A stretch of DNA of 58,835 nucleotides from Nitrososphaerota archaeon. Lineage in GTDB: Archaea > Thermoproteota > Nitrososphaeria > Nitrososphaerales > Nitrosopumilaceae. The stretch covers positions 1 to 58,835 of the forward strand of contig JAGWHQ010000007.1 of assembly GCA_028866655.1 (NCBI GenBank). Reading direction: 5' to 3'. The position numbers were made by a program, and so were the translations under genes. Shown piece by piece: positions 4,808-13,447 of this stretch; positions within the stretch are counted from its first letter, which is position 1, and every line of letters starts with the position of its first letter. A model generated the notes under the pieces. The model did no database searches and was not told the origin of the DNA. It worked only from the letters and a program-made list of their open reading frames with translations.

Positions 4808-6823
4808 TTATTTTTTTTCTGCTTGCAGTTCATACTGGTCATATGTAAACTTCCTTGAAGTTCCAAATGGCCTAAATGCTCTTCCATTACCATGGTAGAA
4901 CTTTGAAAAGAATTCAACATAAATCAATCTTGCTCCCTGAATGCCTGGTTCAAAGACACCAATTATAATATTGAATATGTGACCTATGAATAGTATCATC
5001 GTTCCAAGAACAATGAAAGGAATTCCATGATGTAGTGTTTTGAAAAAGATAAAGTCAATTACATCAGCCAAGATGACTGATGCCAAAAGAATTCCAACAA
5101 GTCTGGTGTATGATAATATGTGGCTAACAATAGAGGGTAACTCCATGATTGCCCTTGGGCCTTCTCCTACAAACATCAAGCCAATTCCACCAATCATCAA
5201 GCCTATGTAAGCAGCACCTGTTGTGCTATGAACTGGGTTGACGTGTTGATGATGCATCAGTGCAAGTCCAAAGAGTACCACACCCCAACCAAAGAGCAAC
5301 CAACCCATTTTGCCAATAGCATGTTTTTTGAGACCTTCACGTATACTATTCAAGATACCTAGGATTAGACCAAATGTTACCATTCCAAGACCAATGTATC
5401 CAGCGATTAGCAATAGTTTTCTTAGACTAGTAATTGGACTGAATATTGTTCCATCGGCAGGTAGATGTAAACCTAGATGAGTATTGAGAAAACCAAATAG
5501 ATAGCCGTTAAGATGGAATCCAAAGTAGAGGTTAAACACAAATCCTAATCCTATTGCAATGATAGCACCTGGTGTCATTGCTTTTGCAAGTTTTACCATC
5601 TGTCGTCTCTTTAGTATATTCAATGCAAATTTGCTCAACATACTAGGCATGATGTTAATGTCTCTCTTTCCACCCTCAATTCTTCGAATAACCCATCGAC
5701 ATACTAGAAGTATAAATAATCCATATCCTGCATCGCCAACCATCATACCGTAGAATATGGGAAAGAATATACCAAAGATTAGTGTGGGATCGAATTCTTT
5801 GCCTTCTGGTAAAGAATAGAATCTGATAAAGGCCTCAAACAGTTTGAATCTTTTTGGATTGTCAAATTGTGTTGGTGGGTGCTCGTCTGTTTCAAGCTCA
5901 AATAACATGGTACCTTTGGTATTTTTCTCAAAGATGCTTCTTAGTTGACCAGTCTTTGATTTTGGAATCCAGCCTTCGAGAGCAAAAGAATCAGATGTTA
6001 CTCCCAGATTATCAATGACTTCAAGTTTTTTGTTTTCAATCTCAAGTTGTTCTTCTATACATACAATATTGACATAATGAGTCTTTGAGATTTCGCCTAA
6101 TTGTCTTTCAACTTCTTTTAGTTTATTAGAAATATCAGTCTGTTTTGATTTTAGATTTTGTAGTAGTTGGTCTGCCTTTCCTTCTAGTTTTGGAACTGCC
6201 TCCATTTTTACATTATATTCTTGAACTACTGTAGCAAGTGCATGTGGTGGAAAATTTGGAAATGTAACAAGGACTAGATTTGTGGTGTCTTTTCCTTCTT
6301 TTGAATAGATAAAGACATCTTGGCTGTTTACATCAAGTGTCTTTTTGAATGCAGCATAGTTTTTGGAATCTACCCTACCAAAGTATGAATGGGCCATCTT
6401 TAATTGAAGAACACTAAAATCTTCTGGGAAAAATGAAAATTCCTCTACTAGTTTTATGTTGTTTTCAGTCTCTTTGAGCTGCGTTAAGAGATGCTCTTTT
6501 TCTTTTTCCAAGGTTGCCACCTTGTCATCAATGTTGATGGATTTAGTAGCCTGCATTATTTGGTCCATGGAAGTGAATCGTTGACATTGAGTGGCCTCAA
6601 TTGGAGGCAGTACTGTCTTTAGTGCTTTCATTCTCAAGAGTTGGTCTGAGACTTGTCTGAACATTTCATTGTCACGTTCATTTCGCACAAGTGTGGCAAC
6701 ATCTTTTGATAATGGCTCTAGTTGTACAACATTAAGATCGTGTAAAATAGAAATTACAGTTTGTCTTTCATTTCGTAGCCCAATGACTGCAATTCTTCCC
6801 ATTGGTACTGGTTTTAGAACCAA
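4808..6823 (-). CDS. atpI: A-type ATP synthase subunit I (a-like stator/proton channel)
   Basis: This 671-residue protein provides the static half of the ion channel and a peripheral-stalk anchor. The first half is cytoplasmic and rich in heptad-like coiled coil (around residues 90-130 and 215-260). From about residue 340 a membrane domain of seven or more hydrophobic segments begins with FGIFFPIFYGMMVGDAGYG, a family hallmark. The late segment SYTRLVGILLASVILADV carries the arginine expected to face the rotor glutamates. It is the last gene of the operon, 3 nt after atpH. Confidence 0.93.
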   Translation of the reverse strand: MVLKPVPMGRIAVIGLRNERQTVISILHDLNVVQLEPLSKDVATLVRNERDNEMFRQVSDQLLRMKALKTVLPPIEATQCQRFTSMDQIMQATKSINIDDKVATLEKEKEHLLTQLKETENNIKLVEEFSFFPEDFSVLQLKMAHSYFGRVDSKNYAAFKKTLDVNSQDVFIYSKEGKDTTNLVLVTFPNFPPHALATVVQEYNVKMEAVPKLEGKADQLLQNLKSKQTDISNKLKEVERQLGEISKTHYVNIVCIEEQLEIENKKLEVIDNLGVTSDSFALEGWIPKSKTGQLRSIFEKNTKGTMLFELETDEHPPTQFDNPKRFKLFEAFIRFYSLPEGKEFDPTLIFGIFFPIFYGMMVGDAGYGLFILLVCRWVIRRIEGGKRDINIMPSMLSKFALNILKRRQMVKLAKAMTPGAIIAIGLGFVFNLYFGFHLNGYLFGFLNTHLGLHLPADGTIFSPITSLRKLLLIAGYIGLGMVTFGLILGILNSIREGLKKHAIGKMGWLLFGWGVVLFGLALMHHQHVNPVHSTTGAAYIGLMIGGIGLMFVGEGPRAIMELPSIVSHILSYTRLVGILLASVILADVIDFIFFKTLHHGIPFIVLGTMILFIGHIFNIIIGVFEPGIQGARLIYVEFFSKFYHGNGRAFRPFGTSRKFTYDQYELQAEKK

Positions 6824-6826
6824 AAT

Positions 6827-7150
6827 CTATACCTCTTTTAGTAAAATATCGATTATCTCTTTGACTGTCTTAGAATCAATTTTTGAAGAAACAGACTTGG
6901 CCTTGGTTTTTGCCTCTTCTATGATCTTTTCTGTTTCGGTATTTGCTTTCTTTCTTGCTTGGTCTATTGTTGATTCAACTAGTTTTTCACCATCAGTTTT
7001 TGCTGCTGTAATTGCTTGTATAGCATAAGTTTCAAAATTTCGCAGTTCTTCTGCTACTTTTTTCTTTTGTTCATCAATTTCTTTTTGTGATCTGTCTTCT
7101 GATTCTTTTATTTGCTTTAGTGAATGAACGTATTTTTCTGATGTAGACAT
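6827..7150 (-). CDS. atpH: A-type ATP synthase subunit H (peripheral stalk)
   Basis: A 107-residue, highly charged, mostly helical protein (many K and E, few aromatics, long coiled coil) as expected for stalk subunit H, which pairs with subunit E to form the peripheral stator. The start is ATG 7150 (MSTSEKYVHSL). The extension to 7180 is rejected because it lies inside a separate small ORF in another frame that ends at 7152. It sits between that small ORF and atpI with 1-nt and 3-nt gaps. Identity rests on composition and operon position rather than on a unique motif. Confidence 0.82.
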   Translation of the reverse strand: MSTSEKYVHSLKQIKESEDRSQKEIDEQKKKVAEELRNFETYAIQAITAAKTDGEKLVESTIDQARKKANTETEKIIEEAKTKAKSVSSKIDSKTVKEIIDILLKEV

Positions 7151-7151
7151 T

Positions 7152-7277
7152 TTATACTCCAAAAAAGTGCTTGCCTGCATATAGTGCCAATGCTATAGTA
7201 CCAAGAATGTTACCTAGTTTAAATGCTCGAATTATCAGAAAGAATTTTCTCTGTTGTTGATTTACAAAATTAGGCAA
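7152..7277 (-). CDS. 41-aa single-span membrane ORF inside the ATP synthase operon (unknown)
   Basis: This is a small frame between atpD and atpH that fills the gap exactly. It starts with TTG at 7277, overlapping the atpD stop by 8 nt, and its stop TAA (7154-7152) lies 1 nt before the atpH ATG. The product begins PNFVNQQQRKFF, then has one strongly hydrophobic stretch (about residues 21-38, including GNILGTIALALYAG) and ends KHFFGV. It is basic at the N-terminus, so that end should stay inside. I know no named A-type ATPase subunit of this kind. The tight packing at both ends argues that it is translated. Possible roles are assembly factor, small rotor or stator membrane subunit, or a coupling ORF. 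It lacks a standard ATG and an obvious ribosome-binding site. Confidence 0.6.
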   Translation of the reverse strand: MPNFVNQQQRKFFLIIRAFKLGNILGTIALALYAGKHFFGV

Positions 7278-7938
7278 TTATTTCCCTCTCCTTTTTTAGT
7301 AAAGCTTCTTGTTCTCTTTCTCCCATCTTTCTTTTTACTGTCTTTAACATCATGAAAGTATCTCGTTCCATTTCATCTAGTCTGAATATAATGAATTTGA
7401 TTGCTGCCTGCAATCTTGGTATGAATACATTTTCAATGGCATTAGATTTTCTTTTTGTTTTTTCAATCTCCAGCAATAGTTTGCGAAGCGTAGTTTCTTT
7501 TTCTGCAACATCAAGAACCATCTTGTGTACATTATGAAATGCTTTTATTGCTTCGTTGATAGACGGAGGAAGTTCTAGTAGATGTTCTGTAAGAGCCTGA
7601 TTACTTTTTCCACCCTCAATTTTTGGAATTCTAACACCCATAACATTTTTTGGAGTAATTTGTAATTTGTTTAACTGTGGAATCTTCATTGCCTCATTTT
7701 CTAGTCTCATGGCACCTGCAAGCATCTCTGCCATTCGAATTGCTTGATATCCTTTTACCAATTCTGCCTGAAGACCACTTCTGAGTGCGGCTACAGTTTT
7801 GCTTGCATTAAAGAATTCAAGGATTAGTGCTTGTCTTTTTAGTTTTAGTAATTTTAGACCTTTTTTTGCAACAATGATTCTTCTCTTTGTACGGATGTAT
7901 TCGAGGCGTGTTGGTCTAATGTTAATTACTGATGGCAA
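7270..7938 (-). CDS. atpD: A-type ATP synthase subunit D (central stalk)
   Basis: This is the central rotor shaft linking the A3B3 head to the membrane ring. It has 222 residues, the usual length. The N-terminus INIRPTRLEYIRTKRRIIVAKKG followed by LKLLKLKRQALILEFF is diagnostic of the family. The rest is two long antiparallel helices. It lies 2 nt after atpB and its stop is overlapped by the small membrane ORF. Confidence 0.95.
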   Translation of the reverse strand: MPSVINIRPTRLEYIRTKRRIIVAKKGLKLLKLKRQALILEFFNASKTVAALRSGLQAELVKGYQAIRMAEMLAGAMRLENEAMKIPQLNKLQITPKNVMGVRIPKIEGGKSNQALTEHLLELPPSINEAIKAFHNVHKMVLDVAEKETTLRKLLLEIEKTKRKSNAIENVFIPRLQAAIKFIIFRLDEMERDTFMMLKTVKRKMGEREQEALLKKEREIIA

Positions 7939-7940
7939 TT

Positions 7941-9329
7941 TTATGCACCTGTGCCAGATCTCTTTCTGTACTTTTCGATGAATTCTGGTTTGATACGATT
8001 AAGTTCAGAGTCTGATAGTTCGCTTAGTAATTCCCAACCAATATCCAAAGTCTGTTCAATTGAACGATTCTCATCCATTCCCTGATTTACAAACTTTCTT
8101 TCAAAATCATTAGCTACTTTCATGAATTTTCTGTCAAGGTCACTAAGTGCCTCTTCACCTACAATTGCAGCCAGGGATCTTGCATCTTTGCCTTGTGCAT
8201 AAGATGAGTAAAGTTGGTCTGCAAGACTTCTATGATCTTCTCTTGTGCTTCCCTTTCCAATACCTTGGTTCATCAAACGTGAAAGACTTGTCAATACATC
8301 TACAGGTGGATGTATGTCTCCTCTGTGCAAGTCTCTGCTCATGACAATTTGTCCTTCTGTGATATAACCAGTAAGATCTGGAATTGGATGAGTAATATCA
8401 TCTGCTGGCATGGTAAGAATTGGAATTTGTGTAACAGAACCATTTCTGCCTTTGATCTTTCCTGCTCTTTCATACAATGATGACAAGTCAGTATACATGT
8501 AACCAGGATAACCTCTTCTTCCCGGAACCTCTTCTCTTGCAGCAGAAATTTCTCTTAATGCTTCACAGTAGTTAGTCATATCAGTCATGATTACAAGCAC
8601 ATGCATATCTCTTTCATATGCAAGATATTCTGCAGTAGTCAATGCAAGTCTTGGTGTAAGTAGACGTTCCATTGATGGATCAGATGAAAGGTTCAAGAAC
8701 AGAGCTGTTCTTCCAAGTGCGCCACTTTCTTCGAATTGTTTAACGAAAAAGTTTGCTTCTTCACTTGTGATTCCCATTGCTGCAAATACTACCGAAAAGT
8801 TTTCTGAACCGCCAAGAACTTTTGCCTGTCTTGCAATCTGTGCTGCAAGCAAGTTGTGAGGAAGACCTGCACCGGAAAATATTGGAAGTTTTTGACCTCT
8901 GACTAGTGTATTCATTCCATCTATGTTAGACATACCAGTCTGAATGAACTCAGATGGTTCTTCTCTTGAATATGGGTTAATACCAGAACCAACCAAATCA
9001 ACTTTGGTTTTTGAAACAATTTTTGGACCATTGTCTCTTGGATTTCCAAGACCATCAAAGACACGTCCTAGCATTTCATCAGATACTGCAAGCTGTGCAG
9101 TCTCTCCGAGGAATTTTACCGATGTATCACCAATGTTTAGGCCTAGTGTTGCACCAAAGACTTGGACAACTGCAAGACCTTGTCTTGTATCAAGAACTTG
9201 GCCTTGTCTTCTCTCACCATTTTGTAATTTTATTTCTACCATTTCACCGTATGCAGCATTCTCTACACCCTCTACAAACATTAGAGGACCTGCAATCTTG
9301 GAGAGAGTCTTAAATGATATTCCAGACAT
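7941..9329 (-). CDS. atpB: A-type ATP synthase subunit B
   Basis: This is the non-catalytic nucleotide-binding subunit of the A3B3 head, 462 residues. It matches the alpha/beta family with [11 protein letters not shown] in place of a true P-loop, then [49 protein letters not shown] and [13 protein letters not shown]. The missing P-loop lysine is normal for subunit B. The start overlaps the atpA stop by 1 nt (TAATG), so translational coupling is likely. Confidence 0.97.
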
Positions 9330-11092
9330 TATTTTAAAGCCTCCATTGATAGTGTTGAAAATTCTTGTTGCATTTTGCTCTTTGTATCCTTCACTAGTTG
9401 TTCAACTTGATCTTCCTTTGTCCATTTAATTTTTGATATCATCTTTCTTGATTCTAATTGTCCCACTTTTACAGATGTGATTCCTTTCTTGATTGCATCT
9501 GCTTCCATCTTGCCAAATTCAAGAATTGTTGATAGCATTAAGAATTGTTTTCTGATTGATGTGTATGTATCTACATCATCATATGCACTTTGTTGTAGAT
9601 AATCTTCTCTAATTGATCTTGCAGTATCCAGTACACCTTTTTCCGGTTCTGGAAGTGCATCATAACCTACAAGTTGAACAATTTCTTGTAACTCAGATTC
9701 TTTCTGTAAAATTTCAAGTGCCTCTTTTCTTGAAGCAATCCATGTTGCAGATACGTTATTTTTGTACCAGTCTCCCATGCCGTCTGCATATAACGAATAA
9801 CTTGTAAGCCAGTTAATTGATGGGAAGTGTCTTCTTGATGCCAAGCTTGCATCAAGTGCCCAGAAGACTCTGGTTACTCTTAGTGTATTTTGTGATACAG
9901 GTTCTGAAAAGTCACCACCAGGTGGTGATACTGCACCGACAAGTGTAAGAGAGCCAACACGCTCTTCAGGTGAAATAACAACTGCTTTTCCACCTCTTTC
10001 ATAAAATTCTGCCAGTCTTCTACCAAGATAAGCTGGATATCCTTCTTCACCAGGCATTTCCTCAAGTCTACCAGAAATTTCTCTTAGCGCTTCTGCCCAT
10101 CTTGAAGTACTGTCTGCCATCAATGCAACACCATATCCCATATCACGATAGTATTCACCCATTGTGATACCAGTGTAGATGCTTGCTTCACGTGCAGCTA
10201 CTGGCATATTAGAAGTATTAGCGACAAGAATTGTACGCTCCATTAATGGTCTCTTTGATTTTGGATCTTCGAGTTTTGGAAATGTTGAAAGAACTTCAGT
10301 CATTTCGTTTCCTCTTTCTCCACAACCTACATAGACAATCACATTGCTGTCTGCCCATTTTGCAAGCTGTTGTTGAGTTACAGTCTTTCCACTTCCAAAT
10401 GGACCTGGAATTGCAGCTGTTCCGCCTTTTGCAACTGGGAAGAAAGTATCAAGTACTCTTTGTCCAGTAAGCAATGGTTCTTCCGGTGCTAATTTGCGAA
10501 GAACTGGTCTTGGAGTTCTTACAGTCCACCAGCTTGAAAGACCAATGTCTGCCTTGGTTCCGTTTTGTACCGAAGCTATAATATCATTAACAGTATACTT
10601 GCCTTCAGAAATATCAGTCAATGTACCTTTGACATTATGAGGAACCATTATCTTGTGCATGATAAGTGGAGTTTCCTGAACTTCACCAATTATTTCTCCA
10701 GGAGAAACATGATCTCCCTTCTTCTTTATTGGTACAAATTCCCACTTTGTGGTTTGGTCAAGTGCAGGGATGACCTTTCCTCTGCTGATAAAGTCACCAC
10801 TTTGTTCCCTTAGAACATCCAGTGGTCTTTGGATACCATCATAAATTGATTTTAGTAAACCTGGTCCAAGCTGCATTGAGAGAGGCCTCTTTGTATTGAC
10901 TACCTTCTCTCCTGGGCGAAGACCTGTTGTATCTTCGTAAACTTGGACTGTTGCCTTGTTTCCTTCGATACGAATTATTTCTCCGACTAGTCCCATATCG
11001 CCAATACGAACTACGTCAAACATTTGTGCGCCTTCTAGGCCACTTGCGATCACTACTGGACCTGAAACTCTTGAAATTATTCCTTCAACCAT
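9329..11092 (-). CDS. atpA: A-type ATP synthase catalytic subunit A
   Basis: This is the catalytic subunit of the A3B3 head, 587 residues. The P-loop GPFGSGKTV lies at about residues 230-238. The non-homologous insertion typical of A/V-type A subunits (about residues 110-190, with [16 protein letters not shown]) precedes it. [13 protein letters not shown] and [42 protein letters not shown]-type catalytic segments follow. There is no intein: length and spacing are normal. The gene is 9 nt downstream of atpF. Confidence 0.97.
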
Positions 11093-11101
11093 TTATCATC
11101 A

Positions 11102-11443
11102 TCAACTCGAGGGGATACTTATTCCTAACACTCTCTTTGCTAGAACAGAGATAGATTCTTCTTGAATGTTACCTTCTAAAGCAGGCATAAATATCACTAG
11201 AGGTTCAATTGAGGCCTCGATCTTCTTTCTAAATATAGCAGGAAGACTGGCTCTAACGGCATCGCTTATGATTATGAGGCTATAGTTACCTGATGAAAAG
11301 AGATCTTGAATGGTCTTGCTTGCATCATCACCACTTGTGATAAAAGTGTCTTCTATTCCTAGAAGGTTATATCCTATAGCAAGCTCACGCTCTCCTACTA
11401 CTGCTATTTTTCCAGTGGTTGTATTGGATTTTTGTTGTGACAT
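11102..11443 (-). CDS. atpF: A-type ATP synthase subunit F
   Basis: This small subunit of the central stalk, 113 residues, binds subunit D and modulates coupling. The pattern KIAVVGERELAIGYNLLGIE, with a following Rossmann-like segment (YSLIIISDAV) and PLVIFMPALEG, fits the family. It has an N-terminal extension of about ten polar residues (MSQQKSNTTTG). It sits between atpC and atpA with gaps of 2 and 9 nt. Confidence 0.9.
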   Translation of the reverse strand: MSQQKSNTTTGKIAVVGERELAIGYNLLGIEDTFITSGDDASKTIQDLFSSGNYSLIIISDAVRASLPAIFRKKIEASIEPLVIFMPALEGNIQEESISVLAKRVLGISIPSS

Positions 11444-11445
11444 GT

Positions 11446-12513
11446 TTATTCTACCAGTAATAACGAATTGATGTAATCTGTAGATAGGTTATAGCGTTTA
11501 CCATATGCAATTCTTTTGATGTTTTCGCGCTCATGTTCGGTGTTGATGATAAAGTAGAATATAGTACCAATTGAAAGTGCAATATTTTTCAATTTTTTCA
11601 CATATTCGGAATTTATGAATTTATCCAAAGCAACCTCAAAGTCGATTAGGCTGTTTGATTTTTTGTACTGGGCCAATGCATTTACCAACATGAATCTATT
11701 TTCTATCCTGCCAACAATTTCTGAAACATCTTTTGCATTATAAACATCCAACAGCTCAGTTGTAGTCATCTTACCACCCTCGATCAAGTGTTTGCTCACT
11801 ATATCCTTGTCAAGATTAGATTCTTTGGCCTTGAGAAGACTGAGTACATTTTTCTTGTCTATCTCTGCCCTTATGAAATCTCGAATCAATCCTTCATCAC
11901 CTTGGAAGAACTTGAGTGACTCTAGTAAATTCTGATAATAGAAATTTTGAAGTGCAGACATCATAGGGCCAAGATCGCCAGTCTTTTGATATGTTTCAAG
12001 GTGATGCATCAAGACTGTTCCGTAATTGTATTTTACAAGTTGATTTACAACACCATCAACTCCTGTTTGGGACAAGATTATTTTCATCTCATCATGTGTA
12101 ATGTTTCCAGCAGAGATACCTGCAGGAACATTTCTGCTTGAGACAAGAAATGATTCAGTCTCAGAAATTGGTCTTCCCATGCTTTTTGCAGAAAGAATAA
12201 GCTCAATATTGTAAATATCCCATTTTGAAAGATATGCCCTAATTGCAGATTTTCCGTTAAATGGAGTTGCTTCTAATGCAGTCTTGTTGATGTATACAAG
12301 ATGTCTGTTAAGTGCAACTTCCAAAAGTTCAGATTCCTTGAAAATTGATGCTGCCTTTTCTATTTCTGGTTTGTACCATGTAGAGCCAAGTGTTTTTACC
12401 ATCTCGGTTTCATCCTTTGCCTTCATCAGGTTTTGCATTTCTTCTTTTGATAAAAGATTAAGTGAGATTGCTTGTAGTCTACCAAATGACGACGCGTATT
12501 GTGATGTTGGCAT
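11446..12513 (-). CDS. atpC: A-type ATP synthase subunit C (rotor adaptor)
   Basis: This is the V-type C/d-like subunit that caps the membrane rotor ring and joins it to subunit D, 355 residues. It is all-helical, with repeating family segments such as YLSKWDIYNIELILSAKSMGRPI and FIRAEIDKKNVLSLLKAKE. The C-terminal IEHERENIKRIAYGKRYNL-like stretch is typical, and here reads EHERENIKRIAYGKRY. Its ATG overlaps the end of atpE by 1 nt. Confidence 0.9.
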   Translation of the reverse strand: MPTSQYASSFGRLQAISLNLLSKEEMQNLMKAKDETEMVKTLGSTWYKPEIEKAASIFKESELLEVALNRHLVYINKTALEATPFNGKSAIRAYLSKWDIYNIELILSAKSMGRPISETESFLVSSRNVPAGISAGNITHDEMKIILSQTGVDGVVNQLVKYNYGTVLMHHLETYQKTGDLGPMMSALQNFYYQNLLESLKFFQGDEGLIRDFIRAEIDKKNVLSLLKAKESNLDKDIVSKHLIEGGKMTTTELLDVYNAKDVSEIVGRIENRFMLVNALAQYKKSNSLIDFEVALDKFINSEYVKKLKNIALSIGTIFYFIINTEHERENIKRIAYGKRYNLSTDYINSLLLVE

Positions 12514-13067
12514 TACATCTTCTCCGAGAGGAAGCTCTTGACTTGGTCTTCATTGGTTCTAAGTAATTCTTCAAAGGTAAGGTCCAATTCTCTTGTTCCT
12601 TCTTTGTTTTCTGCAATGATTCCGCCAAGGGTCTTAATTGACTTGCTTGTGGTTACTCCAAGTTCTTTGAGAATGGATTTGTCTTCTTCTCGGCAGTGAA
12701 CTATAATATTTTGACCAAGTTTCTTTTTTGCATTGTTTACCATAGTTTCAAGAGATTTCTTGTACTGTGGACTTTTTGTATAACTTTCAATCTCTTGGTG
12801 AATTACAGCAAAAGCAGATTGCATGTTAGCATTTATTGCATCAAACATGATCTTCTTTGCCTGAAGTTTTGACGCTTCGATTATTCTTGCTTGCTCTCTT
12901 TCAGACTTGACTTTAGCTTCAGTTGAAAAACGTTCTTGAATCTCTTTTAGTGTTTGATTCATCTCAGCTTGGAGTCTAGACTTGGTTTCCTGAAAATCTT
13001 TTTCAAGACCCTCAATCTCTTTTCGTTTTCTAGTCTCTATCTCTTGAATGAACGTTTCAATGCTCAT
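12513..13067 (-). CDS. atpE: A-type ATP synthase subunit E (peripheral stalk)
   Basis: This peripheral stalk subunit has 184 residues. The N-terminal 80 residues are a long charged coiled coil (EIETRKRKEIEGLEKDFQETKS). The C-terminal globular part with VHCREEDKSIL, GGIIAENKEGTRELDLTFEELL is the family fold that binds the head. It lies 12 nt after atpK and overlaps atpC by 1 nt. Confidence 0.9.
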   Translation of the reverse strand: MSIETFIQEIETRKRKEIEGLEKDFQETKSRLQAEMNQTLKEIQERFSTEAKVKSEREQARIIEASKLQAKKIMFDAINANMQSAFAVIHQEIESYTKSPQYKKSLETMVNNAKKKLGQNIIVHCREEDKSILKELGVTTSKSIKTLGGIIAENKEGTRELDLTFEELLRTNEDQVKSFLSEKM

Positions 13068-13079
13068 TACTGAAAACCA

Positions 13080-13424
13080 CTATAGTATGCCCAGTAGCAA
13101 TATGATTCCCAATACAAATCCGATGATCCATAAAGTTTCTGGAATCACAAAGAAGAATAGTACTTGACCAAACTTCTCTGGCTTTTCGGCAATAATACCC
13201 ATACCGGCAGCACCAATACCTTGTTGTGCATTACCAGTACCAATAAGACCACCTGCAATTGCAATTGCTGCTGCAATTGCCAAGAGTGGTTTGGTTAATC
13301 CGCTACTAGTAGTAGAACTGTCGGCAGCAAATGCTGGAGTTGTTGACACAAACGTTGATAGTGCAATTGTCAATCCCGCAGCTATAACTAAAAGCGATAA
13401 TTTTGAACGCTTGTTCAGCACCAT
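13080..13424 (-). CDS. atpK: A-type ATP synthase proteolipid subunit K (rotor ring) with signal-like N-terminus
   Basis: This is the rotor-ring subunit. The core is one helical hairpin: a Gly/Ala-rich helix (LLAIAAAIAIAGGLIGTGNAQQGIGAAGMG), a polar loop (EKPEKFG) and a second helix with the ion-binding glutamate in FFVIPETLWIIGFVLG. An N-terminal segment of about 34 residues has a basic start, a hydrophobic stretch and a cleavage-like TPAFAA site, so the proteolipid seems to be made as a precursor. I choose ATG 13424 because a TATA-like box lies 24-32 nt upstream; GTG 13427 adds one residue. It is the first gene of the operon. Confidence 0.9.
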   Translation of the reverse strand: MVLNKRSKLSLLVIAAGLTIALSTFVSTTPAFAADSSTTSSGLTKPLLAIAAAIAIAGGLIGTGNAQQGIGAAGMGIIAEKPEKFGQVLFFFVIPETLWIIGFVLGIILLLGIL

Positions 13425-13447
13425 CACCGAAGACTCATTTGAGGAGG

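Follow-up and report, generated by a model that had tools for sequence, protein, structure and literature searches.

The gene order of the Methanosarcina ATPase operon is H-I-K-E-C-F-A-B-D-G, and the V-ATPase operon of Enterococcus hirae contains a small gene, that of NtpH, after ntpD. In eukaryotic V-ATPases the e and f proteins, each with two spans, and the Ac45/PRR helices are small membrane helices of the V-o sector. AhaG is the product of the tenth gene of the Methanosarcina A1AO ATPase operon, with a molecular mass of 6.3 kDa and unsettled membership in the enzyme (PMC4350412). It was reported absent from the Thermoplasmatales investigated in an acid-mine study and from Thermoplasma acidophilum (PMC3750248). 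For ammonia-oxidising archaea, Wang et al. 2019 (PMC6863869) described a V-type-like atp operon that raised the growth of E. coli at low pH and for which the Thermoplasmatales were proposed as possible donor. That operon was counted as nine subunits, whereas the operon described here contains an additional small gene, termed X, that is not mentioned in the available part of the report.

No description of X was found in the open-access literature searched, including the available text of PMC10656485, PMC9264385, PMC9478090 and PMC6131620. In the genome report for Nitrosotalea devanaterra (PMC4836417) atpI is NDEV_1999 and atpD is NDEV_2002 with two tags in between, a numbering which suggests that X is probably annotated there without comment.

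The operon and the gene between atpD and atpH

The window, the whole 58,835-nucleotide stretch of DNA that was analysed, contains an ATPase operon on the minus strand in the order K-E-C-F-A-B-D-X-H-I with the following features.

7941..13427, minus strand: atpB, atpA, atpF, atpC, atpE and atpK, the rest of the operon, upstream; ORFs named by eye from the sequence and the order K-E-C-F-A-B-D
7270..7938, minus strand: atpD, central stalk subunit D; Pfam PF01813, E 2.9e-46
7284..7291, minus strand: Shine-Dalgarno-like GGAGAGGG inside the 3' end of atpD, 6 nt upstream of the X start codon; from the sequence
7152..7277, minus strand: X, small membrane protein gene of 41 aa with a TTG start, between atpD and atpH; from the ORF and junction homologues
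7157..7160, minus strand: GGAG in the Gly-Val codons at the end of X, a Shine-Dalgarno-like motif for atpH; from the sequence
6827..7150, minus strand: atpH, peripheral stalk subunit H/G, with a conserved ATG at 7150; NCBIfam TIGR02926 (AhaH), E 6.3e-5, under its cut-off; homologue after X in relatives
4808..6823, minus strand: atpI, subunit I/a; Pfam PF01496, E 4.9e-24, and NF004432, E 7.2e-182, the latter under its cut-off

The operon is flanked by pyrB, pyrI and a sulfurtransferase gene, recognised by eye, in agreement with the flanks of the V-type-like operon of Wang et al., a setting reported for Nitrosotaleales and Nitrosopumilales (PMC6863869). It belongs to the V-type-like kind of atp operon carried by acid-tolerant ammonia-oxidising archaea. 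A previous sequence-only reading had referred to A-type subunits; this is corrected here, since the operon does not correspond to the A-type of neutrophilic relatives (PMC6863869).

The frame of X extends over 41 codons from the TTG at 7277-7275 to the stop codon at 7154-7152. The start overlaps atpD, with its stop codon at 7272-7270, by 8 nt, and a gap of 1 nt separates the stop from the conserved atpH ATG (7150-7148). The coordinates, overlap and gap given in the sequence-only reading were all reproduced; the space from the atpD stop to the atpH ATG was recounted as 119 nt in place of 118 nt. GGAG upstream of the X start and GGAGT at the end of X, before atpH, were each present in all eight of L001-L008, comprising the window's own sequence and seven relatives. 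The position of X suits translational coupling to both D and H. An ATG replaces the TTG of the window at the same -8 position in 16 of 44 copies of X, according to a start rule set by the analyst.

The N-terminus of the predicted protein is rich in Gln, Arg and Lys and is followed by one hydrophobic span, as had been read from the sequence. Among 62 sequences (44 of X and the 18 Thermoplasmatota sequences described below) the best 19-residue window had a mean Kyte-Doolittle value of at least 1.6 in 59. The N-terminal flank was more positive than the C-terminal flank in 61 of the 62 and equal in one, and a cytoplasmic N-terminus is therefore predicted. The AlphaFold2 model obtained from A1, the alignment of X, has one helix spanning residues 7-39 with a mean pLDDT of 92.3. 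Searches up to E 10 with the window protein returned no families in Pfam, assembly families included, or in NCBIfam, and profile A1 matched no chains among PDB sequences at the same limit. Sixteen bacterial genomes were also searched, and the seven D loci found, from five of the genomes, had no comparable ORF behind atpD.

Conservation of X and its tie to the V-type-like operon

Thirty loci gave the best atpD matches; the D-H junction was complete in 29, and in the remaining locus, L029, the sequence ended inside it. A homologue of X followed by H was found in all 29. Among 20 further loci, 15 had an atpD 63-72% identical to that of the window and contained X in every case, in a longer form of 55-77 aa in 14; the other five belong to a different type (L047-L051, below). 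The frame was open and conserved in the 44 inspected junctions with X, drawn from 45 of the 50 V-type-like places.

The pN/pS ratio was 0.21 in L001-L008, calculated over all pairs from the 38 codons outside the atpD overlap (summed pS 0.595 and pN 0.124), with 172, 118 and 439 differences at the three codon positions, also over all pairs. A second group of nine X sequences gave 0.24. In L001-L008 one shifted frame had a ratio of 1.10 and 3.8 stops per sequence, the other a ratio of 1.43 and 2.2 stops, and over both groups the shifted-frame ratios were 0.83, 1.10, 1.43 and 1.59 with 2-4 stops each. The X frame is under purifying selection; its last two codons are also constrained by the Shine-Dalgarno-like motif of atpH. 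Two checks proposed on the basis of the sequence alone, the comparison of junctions across related genomes and the ratio of non-synonymous to synonymous change, gave results supporting the earlier claim of a translated, coupled and conserved gene, and X is almost certainly a real translated protein.

A search of 201 genomes of the order with the 34-row profile A1 yielded 50 matches at E 3.3e-12 or better, the next best anywhere being 9.5e-4. X was found for all 50 V-type-like atpD places, located in 49 genomes and defined by a similarity of 270 bits or more. It was directly downstream by coordinates in 49; the exception was G182, where a contig break separates the two, atpD closing one contig and X opening another. 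Matches among the loci of A1 are to be expected, since many of the 50 are themselves rows of A1; not built in is the finding that nothing else in the 201 genomes scores.

A V-type-like atpD, here defined by 240 bits or more, was present in 17 of 398 genomes searched across the phylum, and X was present in all 17, of which 13 are shared with the order set. The new carriers were G485, G519, G499 (E 8.8e-13) and G453 (E 3.6e-5), the last a distant carrier with an atpD 57% identical and an X ORF that was read. The next matches in the phylum began at 0.003, in loci where no atpD was found. Of the two atpD matches in G499 (locus L091), it is the V-type-like one that is followed by X. X is tied one-to-one to the V-type-like atpD in the genomes searched. 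That X follows this atpD, also in G499, is what co-transfer with the operon predicts. G499 belongs to the window's own family; by analogy with the hadal species described by Wang et al. (PMC6863869), its second atpD is presumably an A-type gene.

Small genes behind atpD in other archaea

Loci outside the phylum were reached by scanning genome contigs with a marker present in methanogens, followed by a D search in the phylum of a Methanomassiliicoccales genome, the Thermoplasmatota. The D search matched 190 of the 194 genomes of that phylum and the best 30 loci were read. In 24 of these 30 the junction was complete and H and I came after D; 23 of the 24 junctions contained a hydrophobic ORF of 33-58 aa between D and H. 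The operon of L208 has no room for X between D and H, and the hydrophobic ORF at the junction of L228 is without the shared motif. Depending on the operon, the Thermoplasmatota loci that were read contained an X-like or an AhaG-like ORF.

An alignment of 18 Thermoplasmatota ORFs (A4, with L210 in shortened form) was compared with the X profile by hhalign, which gave a probability of 89 and an E value of 2.3e-6. None of 200 segment-wise column shuffles of A4 (N and membrane parts) reached the observed score of 30.6 (mean 11.8, maximum 19.2), and two of 200 whole-column shuffles were at or above it. A repeat with 220 new whole-column shuffles again gave two above, both degenerate alignments of 4-5 columns scoring approximately 130; the highest after these two outliers was 14.3 versus the observed 30.6.

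The core common to X and the Thermoplasmatota ORFs is gapless. It was counted in 34 A1 rows and in 19 Thermoplasmatota rows, the latter anchored by hand, with L228 and three near-copies left out. Phe occupies position 0 in 32/34 A1 rows and 19/19 Thermoplasmatota rows, preceded by a basic residue in 30/34 and 19/19. A basic residue two positions ahead of the Phe is found in only 13/19 Thermoplasmatota rows. Position +3 is Ile, Val or Leu in 33/34 and 18/19, and position +11 is Asn, Lys or Gln in 34/34 A1 rows and Asn, Arg or Lys in 17/19 Thermoplasmatota rows. The family in Nitrososphaeria and Thermoplasmatota is characterised by the basic-Phe core, Ile or Val at +3, Asn or Lys at +11 and then one span, with the gene between atpD and atpH in both. 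Its length ranges from approximately 33 to 77 codons with the core retained throughout. Profile A7, run over Thermoplasmatota, matched 21 of 194 genomes at E 5.3e-5 or better and missed L215 and L228; the search speaks for specificity and adds no new members, because all 21 loci had already been inspected and most are rows of A7. Judged by profile, motif and position, X has relatives behind atpD in Thermoplasmatota. The proposal that the protein is peculiar to the lineage of the window therefore does not hold, and inside the order X tracks the operon type.

AhaG, the closest named counterpart of X, resembles it in that the gene is directly 3' of atpD in the same operon and in that most copies are approximately 50-59 aa with a short polar N-terminus and one span, the span being judged by eye and by the run of hydrophobic residues. 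AhaG-like ORFs were found behind atpD in nine of 18 loci from methanogen genomes and neighbours; of the other nine, three had no ORF, two had an ORF of another kind or truncated, and in four no D was found by the script. A search of 176 Halobacteriota genomes gave 43 at E 0.01 or below, and all of the best 20 loci had an AhaG-like ORF. In these loci (L234-L253) the AhaG-like genes, with a conserved core around AWxxSLxM, extend well beyond Methanosarcina-like loci.

The operon order and conserved motif of AhaG differ from those of X, and sequence kinship between the two was not detected with a 12-row and then a 32-row AhaG alignment. The comparison by hhalign gave a probability of 1.7 and E 0.03 (1.0-1.7 with the 32-row set), and the score was reached by 18 of 200 segment shuffles and by 4 of 200 whole-column ones. 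For the Thermoplasmatota set versus AhaG the corresponding numbers were 8 of 200 and 2 of 200. The AhaG alignment also has neither the basic-Phe core nor the polar residue at +11. The reading that X is AhaG diverged beyond recognition, which is compatible with either a subunit or an assembly factor, draws on the shared place behind atpD, the similar size and the single span, and on the fact that moving H-I turns the Methanosarcina order H-I-K-E-C-F-A-B-D-G into K-E-C-F-A-B-D-X-H-I; it is possible but, given the profile comparison, shuffles and missing core, rather doubtful. The positional equivalence of X and AhaG is a lead and not membership. The earlier statement that no named A-type subunit resembles X is correct as to sequence kinship, none having been found, but has to be qualified with respect to AhaG, a named, small, single-span product of a gene in the same place. 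NtpH of Enterococcus hirae is likewise encoded by a small gene behind the D gene. The eukaryotic e, f and Ac45/PRR proteins are small membrane helices like X, with no Pfam or PDB sequence match to it.

Two further kinds of ORF were observed in the slot behind atpD. In the five loci L047-L051, with an atpD approximately 46% identical to that of the window, a single-span ORF of 35-41 aa with the motif WxxRNFW lies behind atpD in every case, and subunit H was seen after it in L049-L051. Compared with X, these ORFs gave a probability of 23, the score being reached by none of 200 segment and 1 of 200 whole-column shuffles; compared with the Thermoplasmatota set the probability was 13, with 5 of 200 and none of 200. 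The values are only suggestive of kinship to X or the Thermoplasmatota ORFs. The second kind, a charged ORF of 41-55 aa without a membrane span, was present in all 19 loci with an A-type-like atpD (L052-L069 and L071; 28-33% identical to the atpD of the window) and started at most 8 nt from the atpD stop in 18. A-type operons of ammonia-oxidising archaea were reported to be without subunit H (PMC6863869), which the charged ORF might conceivably replace. Comparison of the charged ORF with subunit H gave a probability of 7.7 over 28 columns with 4% identity, and a score of 18.4 versus a maximum of 14.6 in 100 column shuffles, an unfair control in that shuffling breaks the coiled-coil repeats.

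Role of X

X very likely acts in or on the V-type-like ATPase, because the gene is linked one-to-one to this enzyme, is coupled to D and H, encodes a single span and is under selection. A role in rotor, stator or assembly is plausible. The results overall favour X being a genuine, overlooked single-span membrane component of the archaeal V-type-like ATP synthase, and it is reasonably likely that X is a lasting subunit rather than a transient assembly factor.

Small membrane proteins tied to ATPases often serve assembly, as do bacterial AtpI and yeast Vma21, precedents consistent with X being a helper dedicated to the assembly or membrane insertion of subunit I or the K ring and present only in biogenesis. 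A gene inseparable from one enzyme type could equally encode its chaperone, and X is missing in L208, indicating that it is not absolutely required. The tight conservation, the place amid structural genes and the coupling to D nevertheless suggest stoichiometric production, and no Pfam family matched up to E 10, assembly families included; this explanation is accordingly regarded as the less likely one, although it is the chief alternative. It is highly improbable that the frame serves only to couple the translation of atpD and atpH and that its peptide is functionless. The start overlapping D, the stop abutting H and the Shine-Dalgarno-like motif of H in the end of X would suit such a device, but coupling requires neither purifying selection on the amino acids nor a core conserved across phyla, and the length varies from approximately 33 to 77 codons while the core stays. 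A chance ORF kept through overlap with its neighbours, as the short frame and non-ATG start in the window might suggest, has a negligible probability and is refuted by the conservation of X with the V-type-like atpD in the order and phylum searches, the low pN/pS and the ATG at the same -8 position in 16 of 44 copies.

As a lasting subunit, X would be made together with subunit D and would span the membrane with one helix, its short basic N-terminus remaining on the cytoplasmic side. It may pack in the membrane sector, against subunit I or else within or alongside the K ring, the site being a guess, where the conserved basic-Phe segment could touch the foot of the central stalk or the collar. 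X might in this way stabilise or seal the rotor-stator interface of an enzyme thought to also pump protons out at low pH.

More tentatively, and somewhat short of probable, X may be a missing tenth subunit that has moved between phyla together with the operon. Different archaea would then have different small helices in the slot behind atpD: X, AhaG, the WxVRNFW type or, behind A-type-like atpD, the charged soluble type. In that case an additional small component, encoded in this position and placed by no structure yet, would be general among archaeal rotary ATPases. X provides a second, independent and directly testable case for the old question of AhaG. The spread of ammonia-oxidising archaea into acid soils and ocean trenches has been attributed to the V-type-like ATPase (PMC6863869), and a conserved membrane component not yet counted among its parts would have consequences for reconstructions of the enzyme, for its heterologous expression and for structural work on it.
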